Positions 14,011 through 46,502 of a stretch of 64,000 nucleotides of DNA are shown one piece after another. Position 1 is the first letter of the stretch. Every line of letters begins with the position of its first letter. A program made the translations under genes and the position numbers. Below the pieces are notes generated by a model. The model was not told the DNA's origin and made no database searches. It saw only the letters and a list, made by a program, of their open reading frames with translations. Source of the stretch: Nitrospira tepida (GTDB lineage: Bacteria; Nitrospirota; Nitrospiria; Nitrospirales; Nitrospiraceae); contig NZ_OX365700.1 of assembly GCF_947241125.1 (NCBI RefSeq), forward strand, positions 3,504,001 through 3,568,000, in the 5' to 3' direction.

Positions 14011-14994
14011 TCACCCAACCGGTCCCGAGATCGACTTGACGACCCGGTACGCATTGGCTCCCTTGACCACGCCCGCCGCGCCGAGCAGTTTCGGAACGCC
14101 CTCGACAAACCCCGTCATCAGGTCCCCAGGGCTTTGATCCAACAGCACGACGTCGCCCACTCCGAACTGCAACACGTCCTTCATCGGCACCGCGGTGACG
14201 CCCAGTTGCACCGTCAGTTCCACCGGACAATCCAGCAGTTGCTCTCTGAACCGGTTCATCCAGCTCTGATCCTCTTCCATCTGATCGGCGAAGAAGCCAG
14301 CCGACAGTTTTTCTTTGATCGGCTCGATCATCGAATAGGGATACATCACCATGACCTTGTGCGAGATCCCCGCCAGATCGACATGGAAGGAGACGGACAC
14401 CACGATCTCCGGAATCGACACGACCATCGCGAACTGGGGGTTGCTTTCCGAGCGGACGAAATGGATTTTGGCCGGAAGAACGGCGTGCCATGCCTTTTCG
14501 AGGTCGGTCAGCAGCCGTTCCAGCATGGTCTTGATCACGCGCTGCTGGACCGGCGTAAAATCCCGCCCTTCGGTCTTCACGTGCGTCTGGCCGTGCCCGC
14601 CGAAAAAATTATCCACGAGGGCATAGACGAGCGGCGCGCCCATGATGACCAAGCCGTGGCCCCGCAGCGGCTTGAGTTGAAACAGGCTCAGCGACGCGGG
14701 CACGGGCACCTTCTTCAGCATCTCCCCGAACTTCATGATGTCGGTGGCGCCCATCGAGAATTCCACGGGCCGGCGGAGGGCGGCCGCCCAGGACACGGTC
14801 TGCATGCGGCAAAACCGGTCGTTGATCATCTCGAAGGTCGGCATCTTGCCGCGCACCATCCGCTCTTGCGCGGACAGGTCCAACGTGCGGATGCCGCCGG
14901 TCTCTTCTTCCTTCGGCGTCGTGTCGACGTCGCCCGCGTCCATGCCGCGGAGCAATGCATCGACTTCGTCCTGGCTCAGAATTTTATCGGCCAT
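14011..14994 (-). CDS. fliM: Flagellar motor switch protein FliM
   Basis: The 327-residue protein starts with the CheY-P-binding peptide pattern (ILSQDEVDALLRGMD). The CheC-like middle domain has RTLDLSAQERMVRGKMPTFE and the motif GAPLVYALVDNFFGG around residues 118-132. A C-terminal SpoA domain follows (CPVELTVQLGVTAVPMKDVL, GDVVLLDQSPGDLM). FliM is the switch component that receives CheY-P and reverses or stops the motor. It lies 64 bp after fliL and 10 bp before fliN. Confidence 0.97.
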   Translation of the reverse strand: MADKILSQDEVDALLRGMDAGDVDTTPKEEETGGIRTLDLSAQERMVRGKMPTFEMINDRFCRMQTVSWAAALRRPVEFSMGATDIMKFGEMLKKVPVPASLSLFQLKPLRGHGLVIMGAPLVYALVDNFFGGHGQTHVKTEGRDFTPVQQRVIKTMLERLLTDLEKAWHAVLPAKIHFVRSESNPQFAMVVSIPEIVVSVSFHVDLAGISHKVMVMYPYSMIEPIKEKLSAGFFADQMEEDQSWMNRFREQLLDCPVELTVQLGVTAVPMKDVLQFGVGDVVLLDQSPGDLMTGFVEGVPKLLGAAGVVKGANAYRVVKSISGPVG

Positions 14995-24909: not shown

Positions 24910-25023
24910 CGGCGGAGCGGCTCGGCCCGAGCGGGGTGTGCATCCGAATCGTGCTCGTTTCTAACATATGCTTTGTGCGCGATTCCAAAGTTCTATACGA
25001 CCTACTTATTGCAGGAGGAGATG

Positions 25024-27327
25024 ATGACAAACTGGTGGGAGTCACGAAGCCTGACGACAAAGATCCTGATCGGAACCGTCTCGACAGTGCTCATCGTGTT
25101 GAGCTGTCTGGCTTATTGGATCGGCGATCAGATGCGAAGCAGCGTACGTGACCGGCTGCAGGAGCGCAGTCTGGTCATTCAGAAGCAGATTGAGGTGACC
25201 CGCGCGTACATCGCGGGCCAGTATATCGCCAAGATCAAGAACGCCGGCGACGGCAAGATCAAGATCTCACAGGACCATACCGCGCCGGATACGGTTCCCC
25301 TGCCCGCCACCGCCACCAGGGAAATGTCGGAGGAACTGAGCAAAGACGGATTCTATTCGGCCCGCGTGATCAGCCGCACCCCCTTGAATCCGGCCAACAG
25401 TCCCCAGGGATCATTCGAGGAGGACGCGATCAAGGCGCTGGAGGCGGGCGAGAAGGAAGTGACCCGCGTGGAACCGGTCGACGGGATCATGATGTTCCGC
25501 CGTCTGACGCCGGACATCATCAAGAACGAAGCCTGCATCAGTTGCCACGCCGGGAAGAAGATGGGCGAGATGGTGGGAGCGATTTCCATTCAGATCCCCA
25601 TGACCAAGGCCCTCGCCCAGATCGACCACAGCGTGAACATCCTGTATACGGCATCGGGCATTTCCGCCGTCATCCTCGCCGGCGTGCTGTTCGTCCTGTT
25701 GCGCAGCCAGGTCCTGGTTCCCATCCAACGCCTCAGTTCGGTCGTGGAACAGCTCACCAAAGGCAACTACGGCGCCCGCGTCGCCGTGACCAATCGGGAC
25801 GAAATCGGCGAGACCGGCCGCGCCTTCAACCAGATGGCCGAACAACTGCACAGGTCTCTGGAAGAGCAGAAGAAGGCGATGGCCGAGGTCAAGGGCATCA
25901 CCAATGCGGTCAACAAGGCCCAAGCCGCCGTCGAGTTCAATCTGGACGGCACGATCCTCACCGCCAACGACAATTTCCTCGCCGCCCTCGGCTACCAACT
26001 GGCCGAAATCCAAGGCCAGCATCATCGCCTGTTCTGCGAGCCCGCCTACGCCGCCTCCGGCGACTACCAGGCCTTCTGGGCCAAGCTCGCCCGGGGTGAG
26101 TTCGAGGTCGGCACCTATCGCTTCCTCGGCAAGGGCGGCAAGGAAGTCTGGCTCCAGGCCTCTTATAACCCGATCCTGGATGCCGCCGGGAAGCCCTATA
26201 AGGTCGTCAACTTCGCCTCCGACATCACCGCGCAGAAAAAGGCGCAACTGGAGCAAGAGCACCTGGTCACGGAAGCGCAGACGGTCTTGGGCGCCCTGGC
26301 CCAAGGCGATCTGACGCAGCACATGGCCGGGGCCTATCAGGGCGAATTGGAAAAATTGAAAGTCAGCGTCAATACCGCCATCGCCACCCTGCTGACCACC
26401 CTCACCACGGTCCGGGCCGCCGCCGAGAGCGTCAGCACCGGCGCCGAGCAGATCACCCGCGGCAACGAGGACCTCTCCCAGCGGACGGCCGAGCAAGCCA
26501 GCGCGCTGGAGGAGACCTCCGCCTCCATGGAACAAATGACCTCGACGGTGAAGCAGAACGCGGACAACGCCAAGCAGGCCAACCAGTTGGCCATCGCCGC
26601 CCGCGACATCGCCGATAAGGGCGGAGCCATCACGACCCGCGCCGTCAGCGCCATGGAGGAGATCAACAAGAGCAGCAAGAAGATCGCCGACATCATCACG
26701 GTGATCGACGAGATCGCCTTCCAGACCAACCTGCTGGCCTTGAACGCGGCGGTGGAGGCGGCCCGGGCCGGGGAGCATGGCCGCGGGTTTGCGGTCGTGG
26801 CGGCGGAGGTGCGAAATCTCGCGCAGCGCTCGGCCACCGCGGCCAAGGAGATCAAGGGGTTGATCAATGAGTCGATCCAGCGAGTGACGGACGGGAGCGA
26901 GCTGGTCAATCAGTCGGGCAAGACGCTCGATGAGATCGTGGGCTCGGTCAAGCGGGTGACGGACATCATCGCCGAGATCGCCGCGGCCTCGCAAGAGCAG
27001 GCCCAAGGGATCGATCAGGTCACGAAGGCCGTCAGCCAGATGGACGAGACCACGCAACAGAACGCGGCCTTGGTGGAGGAGACGACCAGCGCCAGCCAGT
27101 CGATGAAGGAGCAGGCGCAGGAGCTGATGCGCCAGGTGAACGGGTTCAAGATCCAGGGGACGGACAGCGGGCGAAGCCCGGTGGCCGCCCCTGTCCCGCG
27201 CCCGGCAACAAAACCGACCGCCGCCAAGCCGAAAGCGGCCTCGAAGTCCGAGCCGGCGACCGCCGCTGTGGGTGCCGGCAACGGCCATGATCGTCGCCGC
27301 AAGGACGACGACTTTGAAGAGTTCTAG
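25024..27327 (+). CDS. Methyl-accepting chemotaxis protein with periplasmic c-type heme motif and PAS domain
   Basis: The 767-residue receptor has a first membrane helix (about 11-33) and a periplasmic DUF3365/Tll0287-like domain with one heme-attachment motif CISCH (171-175). A second membrane helix (about 205-230) leads to HAMP, a PAS domain (about 305-420; [20 protein letters not shown]) and the MCP hairpin tip [21 protein letters not shown] Pro/Ala/Lys tail ends in DFEEF, resembling the CheR/CheB docking pentapeptide. Heme plus PAS suggests redox, oxygen or NO sensing. AGGAGG sits five bases before the ATG at 25024; the ATG at 25021 is closer than ideal. Confidence 0.93.
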
Positions 27328-30170: not shown

Positions 30171-30920
30171 TCAGCGGGTCGCTTTGCTTGGCACGGAGGA
30201 AGCCGGCGCTGCCGCGGCGTTGACAATCTGCTCGGTCAATTTGGCAGCCTTGTCGGGTCTCACCTGGGCGAGGATCGCGCCCGCCGTCTTGCTCTTCACG
30301 GTCCGCAGCACCTGCACCGCCATCGGAGCCGGCATCTTTTCGATTCTGGCCGCGGCCTCTTCGGCCGGCATGCCCTCGTACATCTTGGCAACCACGTCCA
30401 GCTTCGCCTGAACCTCCGCCGCCTGCTGCCCGCGGGTCTTCTTGTCCCGCTCCTCCTTCGCCTGTTGAGCCTGGCGCTGCTTCTCCTCGAAGGCTTGGAC
30501 CGAGGCTTCGTAACGGGCCAAGAGGTCTTCGAGGTCGCTCTTGAGGTTCTCAAGCCGTTCTATTTCCGCCCGCAGCGATTCCTCCCGGCGATCGAGATGG
30601 CGCTTCCGCTGATCCAAGAGATCGAGCACCTCGCGAGGCACGTCAACGGCCGGTCCCTGTAGGCGCAGGTCCTGCGGCTCGCTTTCTCTTGTCTCTTCGC
30701 GCCCCCTCCCCGTCTCCCTGTCGTCCGAACCTCTTGCGGGCGGCGCGTCGCGGGGCGACTCGGGAACCGCCTCCAATTGGCCGGCAGAGACCGACGCGAT
30801 ATGCTGAACCGAAACGGCCATCCCCGGAACGCTCGCGGCCAAGACGGACCAGAGGATCAATCGAAGGACATCTCGGCGGACCGGACGGACCTGGGTCAGT
30901 GCTTGCTCCTGCTCGCGCAT
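30171..30920 (-). CDS. MotE-like flagellar protein (MgtE-N domain)
   Basis: The 249-residue protein has one N-terminal membrane helix (about 21-40, LRLILWSVLAASVPGMAV), a Pro/Arg/Glu linker, a coiled coil (about 105-170, rich in Arg, Glu and Gln) and a C-terminal MgtE intracellular-N domain with MYEGMPAEEAAARIEKMPAP. This matches MotE, a periplasmic chaperone-like protein encoded next to fliJ in many non-enteric bacteria. The start codon overlaps the fliJ stop (TGATG); longer frames run back through fliJ. Confidence 0.82.
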   Translation of the reverse strand: MREQEQALTQVRPVRRDVLRLILWSVLAASVPGMAVSVQHIASVSAGQLEAVPESPRDAPPARGSDDRETGRGREETRESEPQDLRLQGPAVDVPREVLDLLDQRKRHLDRREESLRAEIERLENLKSDLEDLLARYEASVQAFEEKQRQAQQAKEERDKKTRGQQAAEVQAKLDVVAKMYEGMPAEEAAARIEKMPAPMAVQVLRTVKSKTAGAILAQVRPDKAAKLTEQIVNAAAAPASSVPSKATR

Positions 30921-31351
30921 CACGAGGAGTCCCTCGCCCACCGGTGACCGGCCAAGTCGTCGAGCATTCGTTGTTCGAGACGTCGCTGTATCTGCTGCTT
31001 CCGGTCGGCCGCCCGTTTCATCACCAACTCGATCTTCCTGCGATCGCGGACGGCCTCCATCAGCTCTGCCTGCTTCTTGGTTCGTCGATCCATCGCCGCG
31101 GCAACCGCCCGATCGACGTTCGTCACGGTCATCTGGATGGCGTTCCACTCGCCCAACCATCCGTGCGCCAGTCCCGCCTCGACCCCCCGTCGGGCTTCCG
31201 TCAAGAGCCGATCCGCGTCGTCATCCGAGATCCGTTGCCATTGTGCGCGGACCTCGTGGACCTTCTGCACGGCCCGGTCGAGTTCCGCCAGCTCCATCCG
31301 CAAAGCCTCCTCGACCTGCACCCGGTACCGGTACAGCCGCGCCCAGCTCAT
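30920..31351 (-). CDS. fliJ: Flagellar export protein FliJ
   Basis: The 143-residue product is almost entirely alpha-helical coiled coil, highly charged, of the size and position of FliJ, beginning MSWARLYRYRVQVEEALRME. FliJ is the central stalk of the FliI hexamer and helps couple export to the FlhA gate. The call rests mainly on size, coiled coil and position: it overlaps the fliI end by four bases (ATGA) and precedes motE. Confidence 0.88.
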   Translation of the reverse strand: MSWARLYRYRVQVEEALRMELAELDRAVQKVHEVRAQWQRISDDDADRLLTEARRGVEAGLAHGWLGEWNAIQMTVTNVDRAVAAAMDRRTKKQAELMEAVRDRRKIELVMKRAADRKQQIQRRLEQRMLDDLAGHRWARDSS

Positions 31352-32655
31352 CCCGCCTGCCCGGCCAATTTGATCAACGCCTCGACGGAGGCGGGAAAGC
31401 TCGCGCGCTCGTCCTTCTCCTGCCTCAGATAGGCATGGATCGCCTCGATCATGCCGACCGCGCGGTCCAGTTTCGGATTGACGCCCGGCTTATAGGCCCC
31501 CACGGTGATCAGGTCTTCGGCCCGCTGATAAGTGGCCATCAACTCGACGACGGTGCGCGCGGCTGCATGGTGAGCAGGCGTGATGATCCCGTGCATGACC
31601 CGGCTCGTGCTCTGGAGAATATCAATGGCCGGATAGTGATTCCGCGAGGCCAGATCACGGGACAGCACGATATGTCCGTCGAGGATCGAGCGGGCGGAAT
31701 CGGCGATCGGATCGTTCAGATCGTCCCCCTCGACGAGAATCGTATAGAGCCCGGTCAGGGTTCCGCTGCCCTCGCAGGTCCCGACGCGCTCCAGCAGTCT
31801 CGGCAGCAGGGAGAACACGGAAGGCGTGTAGCCTTTGCTCGTCGGCGGCTCCCCGATCGCCAGGCCGACCTCGCGCTGCCCCTGCGCGAACCTCGTGAGC
31901 GAATCCATGAGTAACAGCACGTGCCGCCCCTGATCCCGGAAGTATTCGGCGATGGCGGTCGCCAGGAAGGCCCCGCGAATCCGCACGAGCGGGGGCTGGT
32001 CCGAGGTGGAGGCGACGACCACGGTGCGCTGCATCCCGTCCGGCCGGAGATCGCGTTCGAGAAACTCCTTCACCTCGCGGCCCCGCTCGCCGATCAGCGC
32101 GATCACGCTCACGTCCGCCACCACGTTCCGGCTCAACATCCCCAACAAAATACTCTTCCCCACGCCGGCCCCGGCGAAGATGCCGATCTTCTGCCCCAGG
32201 CCGCAGGTCAGGAGACCGTTGATGGCCCGCACCCCAAGGTCGAGCGGTTGGGTGATACGCCGGCGATGAAGCGGATTAAGCGGCGATTGATAGAGCGGGT
32301 ATTCGCTTTCCGCCTCGATCGACCCCTTTTCATCAAGCGGCTGGCCCAGCCCGTCCAACACACGCCCGAGCAGTTTGGGCCCGACCGTGACGGACGCCTG
32401 CCGCCCTTTGGTCATCAGTCGGCTGGCCGGACCGATGCCGCGCATGTCACCCAACGGCATGAGCATGATGCGATCGCCGCGGAATCCGACCACTTCGGCC
32501 GTGAGCGGCGCCGTGCCGTCCTCGCGCGTGACTTCGCACAGCTCCCCGATGGTCGTGGCCGTGCCGTATCCTTCGAGCACGATCCCGGCTGCCTGGGCGA
32601 TCCGCCCGTGCACGGTCAAGGGATCAAGCCCTTCAAACAAGTCGAGCCGCTTCAC
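31348..32655 (-). CDS. fliI: Flagellar export ATPase FliI
   Basis: The 435-residue protein is a F1-beta-like ATPase: Walker A GIFAGAGVGKSILLGML, then DVSVIALIGERGREVKEFLE, Walker B HVLLLMDSLTRFAQGQREVG, and the export-ATPase signature GEPPTSKGYTPSVFSLLPRL. It energises substrate unloading in the cytoplasm at the base of the flagellum, regulated by FliH. It overlaps the REC-FliH gene by four bases upstream and fliJ by four bases downstream. Confidence 0.97.
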   Translation of the reverse strand: MKRLDLFEGLDPLTVHGRIAQAAGIVLEGYGTATTIGELCEVTREDGTAPLTAEVVGFRGDRIMLMPLGDMRGIGPASRLMTKGRQASVTVGPKLLGRVLDGLGQPLDEKGSIEAESEYPLYQSPLNPLHRRRITQPLDLGVRAINGLLTCGLGQKIGIFAGAGVGKSILLGMLSRNVVADVSVIALIGERGREVKEFLERDLRPDGMQRTVVVASTSDQPPLVRIRGAFLATAIAEYFRDQGRHVLLLMDSLTRFAQGQREVGLAIGEPPTSKGYTPSVFSLLPRLLERVGTCEGSGTLTGLYTILVEGDDLNDPIADSARSILDGHIVLSRDLASRNHYPAIDILQSTSRVMHGIITPAHHAAARTVVELMATYQRAEDLITVGAYKPGVNPKLDRAVGMIEAIHAYLRQEKDERASFPASVEALIKLAGQAG

Positions 32656-33743
32656 GCGCCCTGGCCCTTCCTTAAGGCCTCTGCAATCCTGGCCAACTGT
32701 CCGTCGAGCGTCGCATCGACACAGTGCGTCGGCGTCTGGACCAGACAGCCGCCCGGCGCAATGGCCGGATCGGCCTCCAACCGGACCGTCACGGGTCCGT
32801 CGCAGACGGCGGCCAACCGATCGTGCGCCGCTTCCAACGTGGGCAGATCGCGAGGATGCGCAAGAATTCTGATGAGCGGGCTCTCCCGTACCCGCTGCAC
32901 GGCCTGCCTGGCCTGTTCGACGATCAGGTCGCGCTTCTCCTCGGCGCAGGCATGCACCACCTTGCGGGCGATCTCGAAGGCCAACTGGGCCGCCTCCGAT
33001 TCAACCAGCTTGGGTACGTCGGCACAGGCCTCCGCCAACCGGCGAACAGCCTCGACCAGATACTGTTCCTGCTGTTTGGCCAACACGATCTGCTCGTCGG
33101 CCCGGCGTAGCCCCTCTGCTAGGCCCCGCTCGTATTCCTGTGCGCGCGTTGAGGAAGCGCGATGTGATCCCGTCTGGACGGCTTCTCCCCGCTCGTCCAA
33201 ATCCGCCAGGCGAAAGGCATTCACGTGCAGTCCCTGCATCTTGCAGACGGTCTGCTTCAAGACCCGGTTCTCCTGGCGGAGTCGTTGCATCTCAAGCACG
33301 CGCCGGATCGCTATCAGCACGTCGTTGGGTTTGAACGGCTTGGTGAGCATGTCGGCCGCGCCCACCCTCATCGCCTTCACCGCCAACTCGACCGTGCCGT
33401 GTCCGGTAATTATGATCGCGACCGCCTTGGGGTCCTTGAGGGTCGCCTGTTCGAGCAGCGAGAGCCCGTCCATATCGGGCAACTGGTAGTCCACCAGCAG
33501 GACGGATGCCGGGTGGTCGGCGATGGCCCGAAGGCCGGCCTGTCCGGTTTCGGCCGATCTGACGGCGAACCCGTTCTGCGCCAGCAGGCGGGTCAGGAGT
33601 GCTCGCACACTCTCCTCATCTTCAATGACGAGGACCTGCGTCGGCCCGCCACTCCAAGGAAGGGGCTCCTCCCGGGGAACCGGCTCCCCGCCGGTCCCGA
33701 ACGACTGGAAGGAATCATGCCGCCCGGATGAAGCCGTCACCAT
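32652..33743 (-). CDS. fliH: Receiver-FliH fusion: NtrC-type REC domain joined to flagellar export regulator FliH
   Basis: The 363-residue protein is one uninterrupted frame. Residues about 36-150 form a complete response-regulator receiver: EDE at 41-43, phosphoacceptor Asp85 in LLVDYQLPDMDG, Thr113 in IIITGHG, Lys135 in MLTKPFKP. A helical linker (EMQRLRQENRVLKQ) leads to a FliH-like part starting near VNAFRLADLDERGEA. A coiled coil follows, then the FliH C-terminal signature DPAIAPGGCLVQT with VDATLDGQLARIAEAL. The operon position (after fliG, before fliI, ATGA overlap) is that of fliH. The fusion suggests that phosphorylation could modulate the export ATPase. The start at 33743 has no strong ribosome binding site. 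Confidence 0.93.
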   Translation of the reverse strand: MVTASSGRHDSFQSFGTGGEPVPREEPLPWSGGPTQVLVIEDEESVRALLTRLLAQNGFAVRSAETGQAGLRAIADHPASVLLVDYQLPDMDGLSLLEQATLKDPKAVAIIITGHGTVELAVKAMRVGAADMLTKPFKPNDVLIAIRRVLEMQRLRQENRVLKQTVCKMQGLHVNAFRLADLDERGEAVQTGSHRASSTRAQEYERGLAEGLRRADEQIVLAKQQEQYLVEAVRRLAEACADVPKLVESEAAQLAFEIARKVVHACAEEKRDLIVEQARQAVQRVRESPLIRILAHPRDLPTLEAAHDRLAAVCDGPVTVRLEADPAIAPGGCLVQTPTHCVDATLDGQLARIAEALRKGQGA

Positions 33744-33787: not shown

Positions 33788-34783
33788 TTACACCATCGCC
33801 TCGGCGCCGGCGCCGCCGACGACGATCTTGCCTTCCTCTTCCAATCGGCGGACCGTCTGGAGGATTTTCTGTTGCGCCCGCTCGATGTCCGTCAACTTCG
33901 CCGGCCCCTTCGCCTCCATATCCTCTCGCAAACCTTCCGCCGCCCGGCTCGACATGTTCTTGAAAATCTTGTCCTTGACCGGATTATTCGCGGCCCTGAG
34001 CGCGAGGGTCAGTTCTTCCTTCCCCACATCTTTCAGCAATTCCTGAATGCCGCGATCGTCGATCTTGACCAGGTCATCGAACACAAACATCAGCGACCGA
34101 ATCGTATCGGCCAGCGCCGCATCCCGTTCGGCCAGCTTGGCCATGATGGTCCCGCCGTTGCTCTTGTCCAACCGGTTCAGGATGTCCGCTGTCACCTTCG
34201 TGCCGCCGATGCTCATGGATTGCGGACGAGACCGGTCTTGCAGCACCTCTTCCAACACCTCGCTCAGATGCTGCAACGTGTCCGGCTGGACTTCGTCCAT
34301 CGTGGCCAATCGATGCAGGGTGTCGCTCCGCAGCCCCTCCGGCAGCAGCGCAATCACCTGGCTCGCATGTTCCGGGTCCAGGTGGGCCAAGACCACCGCG
34401 ATGGTCTGCGGATGCTCGACCCGCAACAGATTGGCCACCGCCTTGGCGTCCATCCATTTCAGCGTGTCGATGCCCGGATAGGTCTCCGTCGTCAACGAAC
34501 GCATGAGTTGCGTCGCCTTGCCGCTGCCCAGGGCCTTATCGAGCACGGTTTTCACGTATTTCCTGCCCTCGACGCCGATCTCGCCGCCGGAGGCCGCCGA
34601 CTTGAATTCCTGAATCACCTCGATCTCTTGCTCCTTGGAAATCGACGACAGGGCGGCAAGGTGGGCGCCGAGCTTGCGGATTTCCGTTGGCGATAAGTGT
34701 TTCATCACCGCCGCAGCGGCGTCCTCGCCGATCGTCAACAGCAGAATCGCGGCCTTTTGCTCGCCCGTCAGCCGATTCGTCAT
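33788..34783 (-). CDS. fliG: Flagellar motor switch protein FliG
   Basis: The 331-residue protein is full-length FliG: N-terminal GEQKAAILLLTIGEDAAAAV, middle domain with LLRVEHPQTIAVVLAHLDPE and the EHASQV-type EHASQVIALLPEGL, and the torque helix region DLVKIDDRGIQELLKDVGKE with ALRAANNPVKDKIFKNMSSR. FliG binds the FliF tail and transmits stator torque. The gene starts 9 bp past the ancestral fliF stop at 34793, but in the present frame overlaps the altered fliF stop by four bases. Confidence 0.97.
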   Translation of the reverse strand: MTNRLTGEQKAAILLLTIGEDAAAAVMKHLSPTEIRKLGAHLAALSSISKEQEIEVIQEFKSAASGGEIGVEGRKYVKTVLDKALGSGKATQLMRSLTTETYPGIDTLKWMDAKAVANLLRVEHPQTIAVVLAHLDPEHASQVIALLPEGLRSDTLHRLATMDEVQPDTLQHLSEVLEEVLQDRSRPQSMSIGGTKVTADILNRLDKSNGGTIMAKLAERDAALADTIRSLMFVFDDLVKIDDRGIQELLKDVGKEELTLALRAANNPVKDKIFKNMSSRAAEGLREDMEAKGPAKLTDIERAQQKILQTVRRLEEEGKIVVGGAGAEAMV

Positions 34784-37794: not shown

Positions 37795-39228
37795 CTACCG
37801 GCCGCCAACTATCCTATTCCCGCAGAACTCTCCCCCGGTCTCTCGATACTCCCGCAGCTTGTTGCGCAGGGTCCTGACACTGATCCCCAACTGCCTGGCG
37901 GCCTTGGTCCGGTTGTGATTCACTTGGGCCAGCGTGCCGACGATCAATTCCCGCTCCATGTCGCGAAGGGACCCGGCGGGCGCGATCTCCACCCGGCTGA
38001 CCGGATGAACAGCCGGTGCTTGAGCGGGGCTGGACAGTGAATTCGGCTCAATCGGAATGTGCATGGGCTCGATCACTCTATCGACCGCCAGCAGCACGGC
38101 CCGTTCGACCACGTTCTCAAGCTCGCGGATATTGCCTTTCCACGTCCGCTTGACCAGTTCTTGTTCCGCCGCCTCTGACAACAACGGCGCGGGCACGCCG
38201 TTGCGCGACGCGGCCAATTGCACGAAGTGCCGGGCCAGCAAGGGAATGTCGGCGCGCCGTTCCCGCAACGGCGGCAACGTGACGGGGAACACATTCAACC
38301 GATAGTAGAGATCTTCCCTGAATCGTCCCTGCTCGACCTCCCGATCCAGCGGGCGGTTCGTGGTCGCAATCACGCGGATGTTGACCGACACGGGAGCGAT
38401 CCCGCCGATGCGATCGACCTCCCGTTCCTGCAACACGCGCAACAGCTTGGCCTGCAACGGCAGGGCCATTTCGCTGATTTCATCGAGCAGGATCGTCCCC
38501 TGATGAGCCAGTTCGAACTTCCCGAGCTTCCGAATGATCGCCCCTGTAAACGCGCCCCGTTCATGGCCGAAGAGTTCGCTCTCCAAGAGCCCGTCCGGCA
38601 GGGCCGCGCAATTCACCGCCACGAACGGCCGCTGCGCGCGGGGGCTGCGGCTATGAATGAATCGGGCGAGAAGTTCCTTGCCTGTTCCACTCTCTCCCGC
38701 GATCAGGATCGTCGCCTGGGAGAGCGCCACGCTCTCCACTTGCTTCAACAACCGCCGCATTGCCGGATCGTCGCTCAGGATCGGCCGCGCAGAGGCCAAC
38801 CGTGACCCCTCCGGCGCCGTCACGTCCCGTCCCGCTCCCGGAAGCCCCGACACCACCCGCTCCAGCACGTCCGTTGCAAAGGGCTTCAACAAGAAATCGC
38901 TGGCGCCCAACTTGATCGCCTCGACCGCCGTTTCCACGGACCCGAAGGCGGTCATGACCACCACGTGCGTCTGCGGCGTCCGCTTCTTGATCTCCCGCAC
39001 CAGGGCGATGCCGCCCAGCTTCGGCATCTTCATATCGGTGAGGACCAGCCAGGGCTTGGCGTCGTCCAACCGGTCCAGCGCGTCGCGCCCGTCCACAGCC
39101 TGCAACACCACATAGCCTCGACGGCGCAGGGATTCCGTCAGCGCGGTCCGCATCGCCGGTTCGTCGTCCACGACCAGGACCGTGCGGGTGGCTGTGAGCG
39201 CAGCCTCTTCGGCGGGACTTGTCAACAT
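37795..39228 (-). CDS. Sigma-54-dependent response regulator, FlrC/FlgR-like
   Basis: The 477-residue protein has a receiver (TVLVVDDEPAMRTALTESLR, phosphoacceptor Asp in LVLTDMKMPKLGGIALV, Lys in FLLKPF) and an AAA+ sigma-54 interaction domain: Walker A AGESGTGKELLARFIH, the GAFTGA loop in HERGAFTGAII, Walker B GTILLDEISEMALPLQAKLL. A C-terminal Fis-type helix-turn-helix follows (NHNRTKAARQLGISVRTLRN). It most likely activates sigma-54 flagellar promoters. Its start overlaps the kinase gene by seven bases, so the two form a two-component pair. flgB follows downstream. Confidence 0.92.
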   Translation of the reverse strand: MLTSPAEEAALTATRTVLVVDDEPAMRTALTESLRRRGYVVLQAVDGRDALDRLDDAKPWLVLTDMKMPKLGGIALVREIKKRTPQTHVVVMTAFGSVETAVEAIKLGASDFLLKPFATDVLERVVSGLPGAGRDVTAPEGSRLASARPILSDDPAMRRLLKQVESVALSQATILIAGESGTGKELLARFIHSRSPRAQRPFVAVNCAALPDGLLESELFGHERGAFTGAIIRKLGKFELAHQGTILLDEISEMALPLQAKLLRVLQEREVDRIGGIAPVSVNIRVIATTNRPLDREVEQGRFREDLYYRLNVFPVTLPPLRERRADIPLLARHFVQLAASRNGVPAPLLSEAAEQELVKRTWKGNIRELENVVERAVLLAVDRVIEPMHIPIEPNSLSSPAQAPAVHPVSRVEIAPAGSLRDMERELIVGTLAQVNHNRTKAARQLGISVRTLRNKLREYRETGGEFCGNRIVGGR

Positions 39229-40520
39229 GTGCGCGAGGCCTCCCGCAGGCCGATCGGCCTGATGCTGCGACGGGCCTGCGCACTCAATGCCCGAATCTCT
39301 TGCGGCAGCACAACGGTGAAGACGGTGCCCTGCTTGGGCTCGCTCTCCACTTCCACCCGTCCTCCATGCCCTTCCACCAGAGCGTGCACGATGGCCAGCC
39401 CCAGACCGGTGCCGTCCTCGCGGGTCGTAAAAAAGGGATCGAACAACCGGGAGAGGTGCGTGGGCTCGATGCCCGTCCCCGTATCCCTGACCGCCAGGTG
39501 GACCACCGGTTGGTCCCGCGATGAGCGGGCATGCTCGCTCACCGTGATCGTCAGGGTGCCCCCGTCCGGCATGGCCTCGACTGCGTTCAGAATCAGATTC
39601 ACGAGCACCTGGCGCATCTGCATCGCGTCGCACCAGAGATTGGGCGGCGCTTCCTTCAGATCCACGGCCGTCGTCACGTGCGACCGGTTCAGGACATGCG
39701 CCGCCAAGGTCAGCGACTCGCCCACCAGCCCGTCGGTCGCCTGCCAGGCCTTGTTCGGCTTCGCCGGCCTGGTGTAGGTCAAGAGATTGGACAACAGCCG
39801 ATCCATGGCCTGCACCGCGAGGGAGATATGCTCCGTATAGGAGCGCAGGATCGGATCCTGCTCCAGGTCCTGCCGCAACATCGAGGCAAACAATTCGACG
39901 CTCCCCAGCGGGTTGCGGATCTCGTGCGCGATCCGGCCGACCATCTCCCCCATGGAGGCCAGCCGGTCCCGCCGATGCAACCGTTCCTCCAGCCGATGCA
40001 GGTCCGTGATGTCGTGCAGCAGAACCACCGTGCCCGCCGCCTGCCCGCCGTCCCGGTGGGCCGAGGTTCGCGCGATCGTGATCAACGCTCCCGTCTTCGT
40101 GACCAAGGGATACGGCGAGGCGCCCTGAAAAGGATGCTGCAAGACGTCCCGATGTCCATCGAGCCCTTGCTCCGCGAGGAACGGCTCCAACTCGCGCCCG
40201 AGAATCCCGTCCGGCCCAATGCCCAACAGCCGCGTCGTCGCCCGATTGCAGCGATGAATCGTCCCCTGCTGGTTCGCGACCAGCACGCCGGTGGACAACG
40301 ATTCCAGAATGGCCTGAAGTTCGCCGCACATGGCCTCGTTCTTGAGGAGGTTGAGGCGTAACGCTTCGTTTCGATCGGCCAGTTCGAGATCCAATCGCTC
40401 GACCTTGGCCTGGAGCGCCCGATAGGACTGTTCCAGCGCCGCGGTAGCCGCTCCGAAACTGCGGAAGGCTTCTTGAAGCAGCTCAGCTCCGACCGGCTCT
40501 GTCGAGACCGCCTGATCCAT
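39222..40520 (-). CDS. PAS-containing histidine kinase, FlrB/FlgS-like
   Basis: The 432-residue kinase is cytoplasmic (no membrane helix). It has an N-terminal coiled coil (about 20-70), a PAS domain (ILESLSTGVLVANQQGTIHR), the phosphoaccepting His in GRIAHEIRNPLGSVELFASM, and a HATPase domain with N box QVLVNLILNAVEAMPDG, DTGTGIEPTHLSRLFDPFFT and GTGLGLAIVHALVEGHGG. This architecture matches FlrB/FleS-type flagellar kinases. AGGAGA about eight bases upstream supports the start, which lies 38 bp inside the end of the preceding TPR gene. Confidence 0.92.
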   Translation of the reverse strand: MDQAVSTEPVGAELLQEAFRSFGAATAALEQSYRALQAKVERLDLELADRNEALRLNLLKNEAMCGELQAILESLSTGVLVANQQGTIHRCNRATTRLLGIGPDGILGRELEPFLAEQGLDGHRDVLQHPFQGASPYPLVTKTGALITIARTSAHRDGGQAAGTVVLLHDITDLHRLEERLHRRDRLASMGEMVGRIAHEIRNPLGSVELFASMLRQDLEQDPILRSYTEHISLAVQAMDRLLSNLLTYTRPAKPNKAWQATDGLVGESLTLAAHVLNRSHVTTAVDLKEAPPNLWCDAMQMRQVLVNLILNAVEAMPDGGTLTITVSEHARSSRDQPVVHLAVRDTGTGIEPTHLSRLFDPFFTTREDGTGLGLAIVHALVEGHGGRVEVESEPKQGTVFTVVLPQEIRALSAQARRSIRPIGLREASRTC

Positions 40521-42738
40521 GATGCGTCTCTCCTTTTCGTCCCTGTTCGGTTTTGGCGGTGGCAGTGACCAGCGCCATCGCCCGCCTGACGATTTTGTTT
40601 CTGACCGCAGTCCTGCCCTTGTCCGCAATCAAGACGGCCTCGGCATATTGCCGTTGCGTCAGCCACAATCTGGATAGTTGGAACCTGGCGAGATCCGCCT
40701 CATCGGACGCGGGGGCCAGGCGCACGACATCGCCATAGCGGGCCGCTGCGGCCGTGATGCGGCCGGCTTGCGCCAGCACGCGCGCGAATTGCAGGACTGT
40801 CGTGAGGTCGGCAATCGCTCCGACCCGCTCCGCCAGATCCAAGGTCGCCGCCGCCTCCGCATGGGCTCCGAGCGAGGCCTGCGCGTCGGCCAATTGGAGC
40901 AACATCTCATTGTACTGGGCGTCTTGCGTCGGCTGGGCGTCGTGCAGCTTGAGCCAGCGTCGGCAGACCTTGACGACACTGCGGGCGTTGCCCAGCCGAG
41001 TCCAGGCTTCGGCCAGATACCGCAACGCTTCCATCCGGTAGGGCCCGAGCGGATTCTCCAATTGGTATCGCTCAAAAACTCGCCGGGCGGCGCCCGGATC
41101 GTCCTGGTCGAGATAAGCCCGCCCGAGGCCGATCAGCGCCTCCTGCCGCCGGCGCGAGCCGGCTTGCCGATGCAGCACCTGTTGATAGAGTTCAACCGCC
41201 CCAGCGCTGAAACCCAGACGACGGTGCGCGTCGGCCCCCCGCAGCACGAGGTCCTCCTCCAAGGCCAGCCAATCGACGCAGCCGTCCGCTCGATGAAAGG
41301 CCACCACGACGCGCCAATCGTCTGCGGAGCGAAGGGCTTCTTCCAGCGCCGGCTGTGCCAGCTCGGCCAGGCGCCGGCGCGCCGCCCCCGGCCAGGGATC
41401 TCCGGAGACGACGCCGTCACGCCGGCAGGCCGATAGGAAATGGCGAACCGCTTCCTCCTCCTTGCCTTGCGCCTGGAAATGCTCTCCCAGCCGAACCAAT
41501 GCCTCGCTTCCGAGCGAGTCGAGCGGCTGCTGCTGAGAAATGGCTCTCAGGATCTGGGCCCGCTCTTCGGGCGCCACCGGCAGCGGCGGATGCACTCCAA
41601 AGCCCGATTGCACTTCCAAGGCGAGCGCGCGATCACCGGCCTGCATGGCCAGAGCCTTGCCCGCCTCCGTCAGACGCAACCGCGCTCGGTCCGCTTCCGG
41701 TGCATCGGGGAACCGGGCAATCACCGTCCGATACAGCATTTCGCTCGCCGAGAACCGGCGGCTCTGATGCAGACTGTCCGCCCATTGCAGCAGGGCAGAC
41801 GGCGCCCGCTCGTCTCGTGGATACAGATTGACAAACGACGACCAGAGTTGCCGCGCTGTTGCTGCCCGTCCCTGTCCCTGTTCGATGTCGGCCAGTTCCA
41901 GCAGACAGGATGGGCAGGCTCTGACCAGATCCGGCCACCGCCTCATGGCGGACTCATACAGCGACGCCGCTTCCGGCAAGCGGCCAGCCCCATACTGCGC
42001 CGCCGCCGCGCCGAGCGTCGCCCATTGCACGAGCATTTCCTGTTCGGTGCCGGCACGGACCTGCTGAAACGCATGGAGGGCCTGTTTCCATTCCTGCGCC
42101 GCCAGCCATGTCATGCCCAATCCCAGGAAGGCCCGCGCCGCATCCCTGGCATTCATCGATTCCGCCACCGCGCGCTGGTAGGCCGCTTGCGATTCGGCTG
42201 TCCATCCCAGCTCCCGGTAAAGATCGCCGATCCGCCAACGGGCCCGCTGGGCATTGGCGGATTCCGGAAAGTCACGGATCAATTCGACATAGGCCTGAAC
42301 CGCGTCCAGCCGACGTTGGGTTGTCCGATCTTGACGGACGAGGATCTCCGCAAGAAACGCGCGCGCCATCGGGACGACTGTCGGACCGGGAAACTGTTCC
42401 GCAGCTTGACGGAAGGCCAGATGCGCGGCATCCCACTCGCCGCGGTCAAAAAATGACAGGGCGCGGGCCAGGTGCAGGTCGGCCGCCTCTGTCAGATGAG
42501 GTTCCGCACACGGGCCTGGATCGGGCAGGTCGGACCAAGCTAGGGCTGTCCGGCTTCCGGATTTCTGGACCGGTTCGGGTCGAACCTGATCAGCCAAACC
42601 GTCCGACCCAGCGGCAGAGGCGGAGCGGACACAGACATAAGGGAACGGGACGATTGCGATGAGGAGGACCGACAGGGAGGCAATGGTCAGTGGCATTCGC
42701 ATCAGAAGTACCATCCAGCAACTTCTGTGCCCCATCAC
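40483..42738 (-). CDS. Large exported TPR-repeat protein
   Basis: The roughly 751-residue product begins with a signal peptide (core PLTIASLSVLLIAIVPF, cleavage near ASAAG) and consists almost entirely of degenerate TPR/SEL1-type helical repeats, for example LARALSFFDRGEWDAAHLAF and AVELYQQVLHRQAGSRRRQE. It overlaps the downstream kinase start by 38 bp, so the two are co-translated. A periplasmic scaffold or sensor linked to flagellar control is possible but inferred. The start is uncertain: GTG 42738, ATG 42735 and an ATG nearer the signal peptide all lack a clear ribosome binding site. Confidence 0.8.
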   Translation of the reverse strand: MMGHRSCWMVLLMRMPLTIASLSVLLIAIVPFPYVCVRSASAAGSDGLADQVRPEPVQKSGSRTALAWSDLPDPGPCAEPHLTEAADLHLARALSFFDRGEWDAAHLAFRQAAEQFPGPTVVPMARAFLAEILVRQDRTTQRRLDAVQAYVELIRDFPESANAQRARWRIGDLYRELGWTAESQAAYQRAVAESMNARDAARAFLGLGMTWLAAQEWKQALHAFQQVRAGTEQEMLVQWATLGAAAAQYGAGRLPEAASLYESAMRRWPDLVRACPSCLLELADIEQGQGRAATARQLWSSFVNLYPRDERAPSALLQWADSLHQSRRFSASEMLYRTVIARFPDAPEADRARLRLTEAGKALAMQAGDRALALEVQSGFGVHPPLPVAPEERAQILRAISQQQPLDSLGSEALVRLGEHFQAQGKEEEAVRHFLSACRRDGVVSGDPWPGAARRRLAELAQPALEEALRSADDWRVVVAFHRADGCVDWLALEEDLVLRGADAHRRLGFSAGAVELYQQVLHRQAGSRRRQEALIGLGRAYLDQDDPGAARRVFERYQLENPLGPYRMEALRYLAEAWTRLGNARSVVKVCRRWLKLHDAQPTQDAQYNEMLLQLADAQASLGAHAEAAATLDLAERVGAIADLTTVLQFARVLAQAGRITAAAARYGDVVRLAPASDEADLARFQLSRLWLTQRQYAEAVLIADKGRTAVRNKIVRRAMALVTATAKTEQGRKGETHHGSGGLDRAGRS

Positions 42739-42806: not shown

Positions 42807-44276
42807 TCAAATCATTGACGGCCCCGTCAACGGGCAGGACTCGTCGCGACGGACGGGTTCGTAAGCCGTGAGCGCGGGCTTTCCCCCGAGTCTTTTGCGC
42901 TTGAGCTTCTCGACGAGCGTGGTGCGATTGAGGCGAAGGAGTTTGGCGGCTTTGCTAGTGATGCCCTTAGCTTGGACCAGAGCCTCCGCGATCAATCGAT
43001 TCTCATACCGTTCGACTTCCCGCACGAGATCGATGCCGCCTTCGGCGAATGAGAAGGTCTCGGCTTCCAGTCCTGTGGCAGGTCCCGTTGGTCGTTCGGC
43101 CCGCTGAACCACTGGCTCGGGAATATCCTCGATCCCGATCAGGCCTTCCCGCTTCAGCACGATAAGCCGCTCGATGAGATTTTCCAGCTCTCGGATGTTG
43201 CCAGGCCAATCGTACCGCGTCAGAGCCCGCAGCGCGTCCGGCGTCAGCCCGGTGATGGAGGCGCGCTTCAGCCGGTTGAAGCGGTCCACGAAATGCGCCA
43301 CCAACAACGGCAGGTCATTCCGCCGTTCGCGCAAGGGAGGGATCATGATGGGAATGACGTTGAGTCGGTAGTAGAGATCTTTACGAAAGCGGCCCTGGCG
43401 GACCGCCTGCTCCAGATCCTGGTTGGTCGCCGCGACAAGACGCACATCGACGGCGATCGAGCGGGTCCCCCCCACCCGCTCGAAACGGCGTTCCTGAATC
43501 ACCCGCAGCAACTTGACCTGCAACGGCAGGCTCAGTTCCCCGATTTCGTCCAAGAAGATCGTCCCTCGATGGGCCAGCTCGAAACGTCCCGGCCGGGCGC
43601 TGTGCGCGCCGCTGAAGGCCCCCTTCTCGTGCCCAAACAGTTCGGATTCCAAGAGCTGTTCCGGAATCGCCCCGCAATTGATCGGAATCCAGGGGCCATG
43701 ACGTCGTGAACTCCGGGCATGGAGCATCCTCGCCAAGACCTCCTTGCCTGTTCCGCTTTCGCCCTGGATCAAGACTGTGCTGTCGCTGTCGGCGACGCGC
43801 TTGACCACCTGCATGACCGCCTGCATCGATGCACTGGTGCCGATCGGGGCGTCATAAGCCGGCGGTTCACCGGGACGCAGGCCGGCACCGGCCTCGCCGC
43901 GCCGGCCTTGGCGAGAGCGCGCCGCCCGCTCCAAGGTCTGCGAGAGCAGCGCCGGGTCGAAAGGCTTTGTGATGAAGTCCATCGCGCCGGCGCGCATCGC
44001 GCGCACGGCCCGCTCGACGGTGCCGTCTCCGGTCATCGCTATGCTGCAGATCCCCCGCTCCAGCGCGGCGACCCGTTCGATCACGGCCACGCCGTCCATG
44101 TCCGGGAGTTGAAGGTCGATCAACAGCACATCGACGGCTTGGTCCTGCGCCCGCTGAATCGCCGACCGTCCGTCGGCTGCGGCGGCAACCGTCCATCCTT
44201 CCTCGCTGAGCGTGGCTTGAATCAAGGTCCGAACGGCGGGGTCGTCTTCCACAACCAACACATGCAGTGGTCCCAT
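42807..44276 (-). CDS. Second sigma-54-dependent response regulator (NtrC family)
   Basis: The 489-residue regulator has a receiver (VLVVEDDPAVRTLIQATLSE, phosphoacceptor in VLLIDLQLPDMDG, Lys in FITKPFDP). Its AAA+ domain has Walker A QGESGTGKEVLARMLHARS and sigma-54 loop KGAFSGAHSA (GAFSGA, Ser for the usual Thr), with GTIFLDEIGELSLPLQVKLL. The C-terminal Fis-type helix-turn-helix contains ITSKAAKLLRLNRTTLVEKL. It differs from the FlrC-like protein and may be a FlrA/FleQ-like master or an unrelated regulator. A short inverted repeat (CCTGTC/GACAGG, 42771-42790) lies just after the gene. Confidence 0.9.
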   Translation of the reverse strand: MGPLHVLVVEDDPAVRTLIQATLSEEGWTVAAAADGRSAIQRAQDQAVDVLLIDLQLPDMDGVAVIERVAALERGICSIAMTGDGTVERAVRAMRAGAMDFITKPFDPALLSQTLERAARSRQGRRGEAGAGLRPGEPPAYDAPIGTSASMQAVMQVVKRVADSDSTVLIQGESGTGKEVLARMLHARSSRRHGPWIPINCGAIPEQLLESELFGHEKGAFSGAHSARPGRFELAHRGTIFLDEIGELSLPLQVKLLRVIQERRFERVGGTRSIAVDVRLVAATNQDLEQAVRQGRFRKDLYYRLNVIPIMIPPLRERRNDLPLLVAHFVDRFNRLKRASITGLTPDALRALTRYDWPGNIRELENLIERLIVLKREGLIGIEDIPEPVVQRAERPTGPATGLEAETFSFAEGGIDLVREVERYENRLIAEALVQAKGITSKAAKLLRLNRTTLVEKLKRKRLGGKPALTAYEPVRRDESCPLTGPSMI

Positions 44277-44543: not shown

Positions 44544-46502
44544 TTATGGACTTGCTTCCATGGTCTGACCCTGTAGGTCGGCCTGTATCCCATGCGGCTG
44601 GTCCAGCACTTTTCGAATCCGATTCGCCAGGGCGTGAGGCGTAAAGGGCTTCTGCAGGAATTCCACTCGCGCAGCGACCACCCCGTGTTTGAGAATTTCG
44701 TCATCCGTATAGCCAGACATGAACATGACCTTGAGATCGGGAGACTGGCCGCGCAGATGTTCCGCGAGCTCACGCCCGCCCATCTGCGGCATCACGATGT
44801 CCGTCAAAAGCAGATCGATCGCATCCCGATACTGGCTGACAAGCAAGAGCGCTTCCATTCCATCATTGGCCTCCAGCACGCGATACCCTCGCGATCGAAG
44901 CGTATCGCGCACCAGGGCCCGGACGGCCGGCTCGTCCTCGACCACGAGAATGATTTCGGTCCCCCGTTGCTTGGACACGTCGTGATCTTCGGTATGGTCC
45001 GACGTCACCGGTCCTTCAATGCGAGGGAAGTACATGGTGAAGGTCGTCCCCCGCCCCGGTTCGCTGGCCACGGTAATGAGCCCGCCGCTTTGCTTGACGA
45101 CGCCGTACACCGTGGAGAGCCCCAATCCGGTTCCCTTGCCCTTCGGCTTGGTCGTGAAAAACGGCTCGAAGATATGGGAGAGCACGCCGGGATCGATCCC
45201 GGTCCCGGTATCCGCCACGACGACCTGCACATACCGGCCGGGAGCCGCGTCGAGTTGCCGCTCGCCGAGCTCCTGCGGCCCAAGATCGATGTTGCCAGGC
45301 TCGATCATGATCCGGCCGCCTTCCGGCATGGCATCGCGCGCGTTCACGGCCAGATTCAGGATCACCTGCTCAAGCTGGCCGGGATCAACTCGAATCGTCC
45401 CGAGGCCGGGACAGGAACGGACAAGCAGTTCGATGTTATCCCCGGCCAGCGTGCGCAACATCTGCATCATTCCCTGCAGCACCTGGTTCACGTCAATGAC
45501 CTTCGGCTGCAGAACCTGGCGGCGGCTGAACGCGAGCAGTTGCGAGGTCAAGCCCGCCGCTCGCTCGCCGGCTTGCAGGATCTGATCGACGCTCTGGCGC
45601 TGGTCCTCCGTCAAGGTGCCGTCTTCGGCCAACAAGCAACCGTGACCGTTGATGACCGTCAGCATGTTGTTGAAATCGTGCGCGACGCCGCCGGCCAGCT
45701 TGCCGACCGCCTCCATCTTCTGAGATTGCCGGACTTGCTCTTCCAGTTGTTGTTGCTTGCTGAGATTGCGAAGGAGGACTTGCGCGACCTCATCGCCTGT
45801 GCCAGCCGAGGGGGCGGCCCGCAGTTCCACATCCACCCCCTTGCCGTCCAGGCGAAGGCATTTGACGGTGGCTCCGCCGACCGGTTCGCTCCGTTCCAGG
45901 CTGCCACGGATCTGGTCGAGCTTGCTTCGATCATAGTCGGGATGCACAAAATCCCAGAGGGATCGTCCGACGAGCATCTCGGCGTTCGCCGCGCCGAATA
46001 GATTGGCGGCCTCGCGATTGGCGGAGACGACACGCCCTTTCTGCACTAACACGATGGCATCGGGAAACAGGTCCAGCAGACGCCGGTACCATTCGTATCC
46101 CTGGCCGTGGACTCCAACGTGATCCCGGCACGGATCGCCATCGGCGATCAAGCCTCCCACCAGGAGCGGCGCCGTGGACAGGCGGACCGGGAAGACCTTG
46201 ACGGTCGGAGCGAGCTCGGTGCCGTCCGGAAGGTACAAAGGGGCGATCGTCTTTTCGGAAGCGCCCTCCGCCACTATCTGCGCAGCCTGCGCCTGGACAT
46301 GTTTCCACCAGGCCTGAAGCTGCGGAGAAGGTTCCGGCGTTCCGTGACCGGCGCTGGCGACAACCAGTCGCCCGAATTTCAACAGGAAGGCAGGGTTGGC
46401 ATACAACAGGCTCCCGTTTCCTGCCAGAACGAACAGCTTGGCCGGATGCCGGTCCAGCAGGGCCGTAGCCAGTTCACAATCGGCGGCGCCAAATAAGGGC
46501 AT
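44544..46502 (-). CDS. Hybrid histidine kinase (PAS-HisKA-HATPase-REC)
   Basis: The 652-residue protein lacks membrane helices. It has an N-terminal PAS-like region (LFVLAGNGSLLYANPAFLLK), a second PAS (LLDLFPDAIVLVQKGRVVSA), and a HisKA phosphoacceptor in LAGGVAHDFNNMLTVINGHG. The HATPase domain has LEQVILNLAVNARDAMPEGG, VADTGTGIDPGV and GKGTGLGLSTVYGVVKQSGG, and a C-terminal receiver has phosphoacceptor LLLTDIVMPQMGGREL and Lys in FLQKPFTPHA. Its output partner is unknown; the lone receiver at 46664 is the nearest candidate. No DNA-binding domain is present. Confidence 0.9.
   Translation of the reverse strand: MPLFGAADCELATALLDRHPAKLFVLAGNGSLLYANPAFLLKFGRLVVASAGHGTPEPSPQLQAWWKHVQAQAAQIVAEGASEKTIAPLYLPDGTELAPTVKVFPVRLSTAPLLVGGLIADGDPCRDHVGVHGQGYEWYRRLLDLFPDAIVLVQKGRVVSANREAANLFGAANAEMLVGRSLWDFVHPDYDRSKLDQIRGSLERSEPVGGATVKCLRLDGKGVDVELRAAPSAGTGDEVAQVLLRNLSKQQQLEEQVRQSQKMEAVGKLAGGVAHDFNNMLTVINGHGCLLAEDGTLTEDQRQSVDQILQAGERAAGLTSQLLAFSRRQVLQPKVIDVNQVLQGMMQMLRTLAGDNIELLVRSCPGLGTIRVDPGQLEQVILNLAVNARDAMPEGGRIMIEPGNIDLGPQELGERQLDAAPGRYVQVVVADTGTGIDPGVLSHIFEPFFTTKPKGKGTGLGLSTVYGVVKQSGGLITVASEPGRGTTFTMYFPRIEGPVTSDHTEDHDVSKQRGTEIILVVEDEPAVRALVRDTLRSRGYRVLEANDGMEALLLVSQYRDAIDLLLTDIVMPQMGGRELAEHLRGQSPDLKVMFMSGYTDDEILKHGVVAARVEFLQKPFTPHALANRIRKVLDQPHGIQADLQGQTMEASP

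Follow-up and report, generated by a model that had tools for sequence, protein, structure and literature searches.

A response-regulator receiver domain fused to the flagellar protein FliH in Nitrospira tepida and its relatives

FliH holds the flagellar export ATPase and keeps it in check, and the usual view is that transcription, chaperones and gate switching set the order of flagellar type III export. In the window analyzed here, a stretch of 64,000 nucleotides from Nitrospira tepida, the frame in the fliH position also encodes a response-regulator receiver domain (REC). Is this fusion real, where does the REC come from, and might it bring two-component control to flagellar export? The features on which these questions turn are the following:

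32652..33743, minus strand: REC-FliH gene encoding 363 aa, with no other fliH in the genome (frame, Pfam and genome profile search)
33294..33638, minus strand: NtrC-type receiver domain, residues 36-150, with the codon of the phospho-acceptor D85 at 33489-33491
33237..33293, minus strand: coiled coil continuing alpha5, residues 151-169, LRQENRVLK, resembling the NtrC1 dimerising linker
33156..33236, minus strand: linker with a short conserved segment, located where FliH has its peptide for C-ring docking
32670..33155, minus strand: residues 197-358, comprising the stalk helix of FliH and its C-terminal domain for FliI binding
31348..32655, minus strand: fliI, export ATPase, with a GTGA overlap with REC-FliH
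33788..34783, minus strand: fliG, upstream neighbor of REC-FliH

The initial annotation had placed the gene between fliG and fliI with an ATGA overlap; the position stands, while the overlap is GTGA, with the GTG start of fliI at 32655, and the strand is minus. Its reading of a complete NtrC-type REC and linker ahead of a full FliH in one frame holds. Pfam matches Response_reg at residues 37-146 (E 1.4e-25, far over the cut-off) and FliH at residues 225-352 (E 3.8e-16, 59.6 bits against a curated cut-off of 24.1). The residues it named for phosphorylation (E41/D42, D85, T113 and K135) are all present, together with K135-P136-F137, so that the acidic pair, Asp acceptor, Thr/Ser and Lys of a response regulator are complete and the domain is predicted to be competent for phosphorylation. 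With regard to the NtrC family, the REC and the coil linker are there, whereas neither a sigma-54 AAA+ domain nor an HTH is matched in Pfam. As in Salmonella and other FliH proteins (PF02108), the FliI-binding domain is C-terminal and preceded by a stalk helix, and the gene is single copy in the order fliG-fliH-fliI of a flagellar cluster. The genome is complete, a single contig of 4.73 Mb, and profile search finds one FliH only; therefore, REC-FliH has to be the FliH of the flagellum, provided that this cluster is in use. After fliJ, 30171-31160 (minus strand) encodes a coiled-coil protein whose sole Pfam match is a weak coiled-coil one and whose C-terminal end is like MgtE_N by eye.

The fusion extends well beyond one assembly. 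In the family scanned, which we take to correspond to the Nitrospiraceae of GTDB, a profile scan detected FliH in 129 of 175 genomes, and 127 of these 129 loci were read. REC-FliH is found at 122 of them, and the five REC-less loci (g12, g19, g20) form one clade. In Pfam, Response_reg was matched in 47/47 sampled REC-FliH and in 0/27 other FliH. We found no FliH REC in the sister family or the rest of the phylum among the loci read (L054-L081, L106-L121), and the FliH frames outside the family are all ≤313 aa among the phylum-scan matches listed, weak matches lying outside that listing. Nor is there a REC in any of 45 long-frame FliH loci (about 320 aa or more) from five further sampled phyla, whose reference genomes bear the labels Gammaproteobacteria, Proteobacteria, Acidobacteria, Nitrospinota and Treponema; a compact fusion could still lie among the many other spirochaete frames of 300-345 aa, in shorter frames or in matches outside the listing. 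Whole-genome profile searches were relied on for this mapping, since scanning contigs with the full-length protein gave mostly unrelated RECs of 27-38% identity. At three spirochaete loci (L289-L291), FliH frames of 526-568 aa run well past the FliH domain as a C-terminal extension.

An interrupted frame or a fusion unique to this assembly would have undermined the initial annotation. However, the fusion recurs in 121 further assemblies of the family and the spacing from coil to FliH is identical in 118 of the 122, so the frame is no sequencing accident. The fusion is thus confirmed as real, and mapping over Nitrospirota makes it a conserved trait of nearly the whole family. Besides, in agreement with the suspicion that the pairing had not been described, we found no earlier description of REC-FliH in a search of the open literature (5.39 million papers), and among the best 25 NCBIfam matches no model covers both halves. 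REC-FliH is a new domain architecture of a known protein.

The AlphaFold (AF2) model predicts two well-folded modules separated by a short flexible linker. The REC has a pLDDT of 96-98 and its alpha5 runs on as a coil to residue 169; the linker is weak around 183-196 and the FliH part is well predicted. With a pTM of 0.47, the model leaves the mutual placement of the two modules unfixed. The best PDB match of the REC is the phosphorylated REC of NtrC1 (TMt 0.89). Aquifex aeolicus NtrC1 (PDB 1zy2, 1ny5, 4l4u) is alike in REC fold, phospho-site and coiled-coil linker, with about 40% identity over residues 36-164, but in REC-FliH the output is FliH in place of the sigma-54 AAA+ and DNA-binding domains of such regulators.

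Compared to Salmonella FliH, the protein gains about 170 N-terminal residues of receiver and coil, and its linker lacks the Trp clamp that serves in docking to FliN. There is no Trp in any of the 122 linkers, and only 16 of the 122 proteins have one ahead of the REC; the N-terminal Trp docking motif (FliN/FlhA), which is a Salmonella-type feature and not a definition of the FliH family, is absent. Many REC-less FliH outside the family carry a Trp near the N-terminus, whereas those of the same family also seem to be without it, so the loss may predate the fusion. The segment of constant spacing has instead a near-invariant F182 (119/122), and C-ring docking must therefore differ from the Trp clamp.

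The sequence of the REC suggests a domain in use. D85 and K135 are invariant (122/122) although relatives are about 31-52% identical to the window protein, T or S stands at 113 in 121/122, the first acidic residue is kept in every sequence covering that site, and 93% have F as the switch aromatic at 132. Median omega over 48 independent close pairs is 0.125 for the REC and 0.137 for FliH; the REC is under purifying selection as strong as that on FliH. The second acidic residue is A, H or G in 13/122, and one protein has lost the Thr/Ser, so phosphorylation may be weak in those variants. Such second-acidic variants occur in a sub-clade (for example, L142, L148, L153, L156 and L188), one of them also having Ala for Thr/Ser.

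With respect to origin, every REC-FliH taxon sampled falls within a single clade (support 84/88) in a careful tree built on five flagellar proteins, next to the family's REC-less clade, and the RECs form one clade (98/93) in a careful REC tree. This distribution fits one gain. An early quick tree, with the REC-bearing G164 basal in the family, had suggested a gain plus a loss and is superseded by the careful one. The initial annotation had pointed to an NtrC regulator as the source, and both NtrC-type genes it saw in the cluster, at 37795-39225 and 42807-44276, are there. The second of them is the closest:

42807..44276, minus strand: ntrC2, NtrC-type regulator, closest REC paralogue and likely source of the REC

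The ntrC2 REC is the nearest in the genome to that of REC-FliH (41% identity), and the coil LRQENxxLK is common to REC-FliH and the family's ntrC2 proteins and absent from flrC. Coils of this type are, however, common in NtrC regulators. A quick tree nests the REC-FliH RECs with those of ntrC2 (support about 0.9), whereas the careful REC tree leaves that grouping open. As for flrC, neither REC tree favors it as the source, and its grouping is not formally rejected (p-AU 0.11). These sequence comparisons point, weakly, to ntrC2 of the same flagellar cluster as the likely donor, not a proven one. Unlike REC-FliH, ntrC2 is a full transcription factor retained separately; it is full length in 20/20 family loci checked upstream of the cluster, which indicates that the gene was copied and not broken. 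Its own phospho-site is intact, and throughout the family and the class it stands at the head of the flagellar cluster, with no conserved neighboring kinase.

How might such a protein work? In our opinion, an evenly balanced chance can be given to a FliH with a built-in two-component input, in which D85, phosphorylated by a kinase, would set the docking of FliH-FliI or the restraint of FliI. In the ancestor of one of the family's clades, the first ~165 codons (REC and coil) of an NtrC-type regulator, probably the ntrC2 gene of this flagellar cluster, would have come to stand before the only fliH. Phosphorylation of D85 by a histidine kinase might then change the REC/coil dimer, or let the REC bind a C-ring partner, and so set the docking of FliH2-FliI at FliM/FliN or the restraint of FliI; flagellar export could thereby be linked to a signal or an assembly checkpoint. 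In NtrC1-type proteins, REC and coil switch dimer form on phosphorylation, and FliH is a dimer, which makes a coupled dimer switch plausible. Salmonella FliH docks to FliM/FliN by its extreme N-terminus and forms the dimeric peripheral stalk for FliI (PMC4443714, PMC9114704), so that the REC sits at the docking end of FliH. By analogy, CheY on FliM/FliN is likewise a phospho-receiver at the C ring; it differs in being a free single-domain protein acting on rotation, whereas the REC of REC-FliH, probably placed at the ring, is fused to the export ATPase complex.

The phosphodonor could be the kinase of ntrC2, FlrB or CheA. The genes of the window that bear on this choice are:

39222..40628, minus strand: flrB, soluble PAS histidine kinase, candidate phosphodonor
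37795..39225, minus strand: flrC, NtrC-type regulator, presumed partner of FlrB
14011..14994, minus strand: fliM, with the CheY-binding motif ILSQDEVDALL retained at the N-terminus

FlrB is in the cluster at nearly all family loci read, and FlrBC/FleSR-type kinases of polar flagellates respond to the MS ring, rotor and export apparatus (PMC7064773). Alpha1 of REC-FliH, the kinase-contacting helix, is without M46 and A49, both invariant in FlrC; hence FlrB is a candidate and not a conclusion. CheA is another candidate, since FliM keeps the CheY-binding motif. In 20 family loci whose sequence upstream of the cluster was read, no kinase consistently adjoins ntrC2. The hybrid kinase at 44544-46502, which the initial annotation had proposed as a partner, is clearly recognizable there only in the window and its nearest relative (G006) and is thus unlikely as a family-wide one. 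Also in the window, the chemoreceptor encoded at 24973-27327 (plus strand) combines HAMP and PAS domains with a Tll0287-like sensor domain that bears a CISCH motif (CxxCH, c-heme-type); it may be a haem-based receptor for energy or redox taxis.

Other explanations have to be weighed against a two-component input. The REC might be mainly a protein-protein module that replaces the Trp-clamp peptide and binds FliM/FliN, as CheY does, or recruits a kinase to the motor, with phosphorylation fine-tuning or secondary. The position of the REC at precisely the C-ring docking end of FliH (PMC4443714), the linkers devoid of Trp while many REC-less FliH elsewhere have one, and the CheY-binding motif kept in FliM speak in favor of this docking role, but the seeming absence of Trp in the family's REC-less FliH and a conservation of D85, K135 and T113 that argues for a role of phospho-chemistry leave it rather unlikely. 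We consider it improbable that REC-FliH is a phosphate sink or feedback device, drawing phosphate from the kinase of ntrC2 or flrC and, as free or motor-bound FliH, tuning the transcription of class II/III genes while export itself is hardly affected. Such a role agrees with a REC closest to that of the regulator heading the same cluster, with the retention of both ntrC2 and flrC beside REC-FliH and with the coupling of FlrBC-type systems to formation of the export apparatus (PMC7064773); yet it needs no fusion to FliH, and the fusion persists at 122 loci with its spacing nearly always constant.

A REC that is a folded passenger, a structural relic with no signaling role, is very improbable in view of its invariant D85 and K135 at such sequence divergence and of an omega as low as FliH's, even if the second acidic residue is gone in some proteins and no kinase stands out as donor. 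The probability that annotation or assembly misleads us, or that internal starts yield two products, is close to negligible. Several SctQ/FliM-family genes of type III systems do use internal starts, which gives the two-product idea a precedent; SD-like sites are scattered in 49/122 REC-FliH, before mostly non-ATG codons. Nevertheless, the identical fusion recurs at 122 family loci, and no conserved internal start codon exists in the 122 sequences from which a REC-less FliH could be made.

Taking again the two-component input as our preferred reading, its extension to the whole family is a post-translational control in which FliH phosphorylation would gate the recruitment or activity of FliI at the C ring, independently of transcription and CheY; to this we assign slightly under an even chance. 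Through a receiver fixed to the regulator of the ATPase, a sensor kinase would be able to act directly on the export machine. D85 is a natural allele for asking when and why export goes up or down, and the REC-less sister clade offers a ready comparison to the carriers of REC-FliH.
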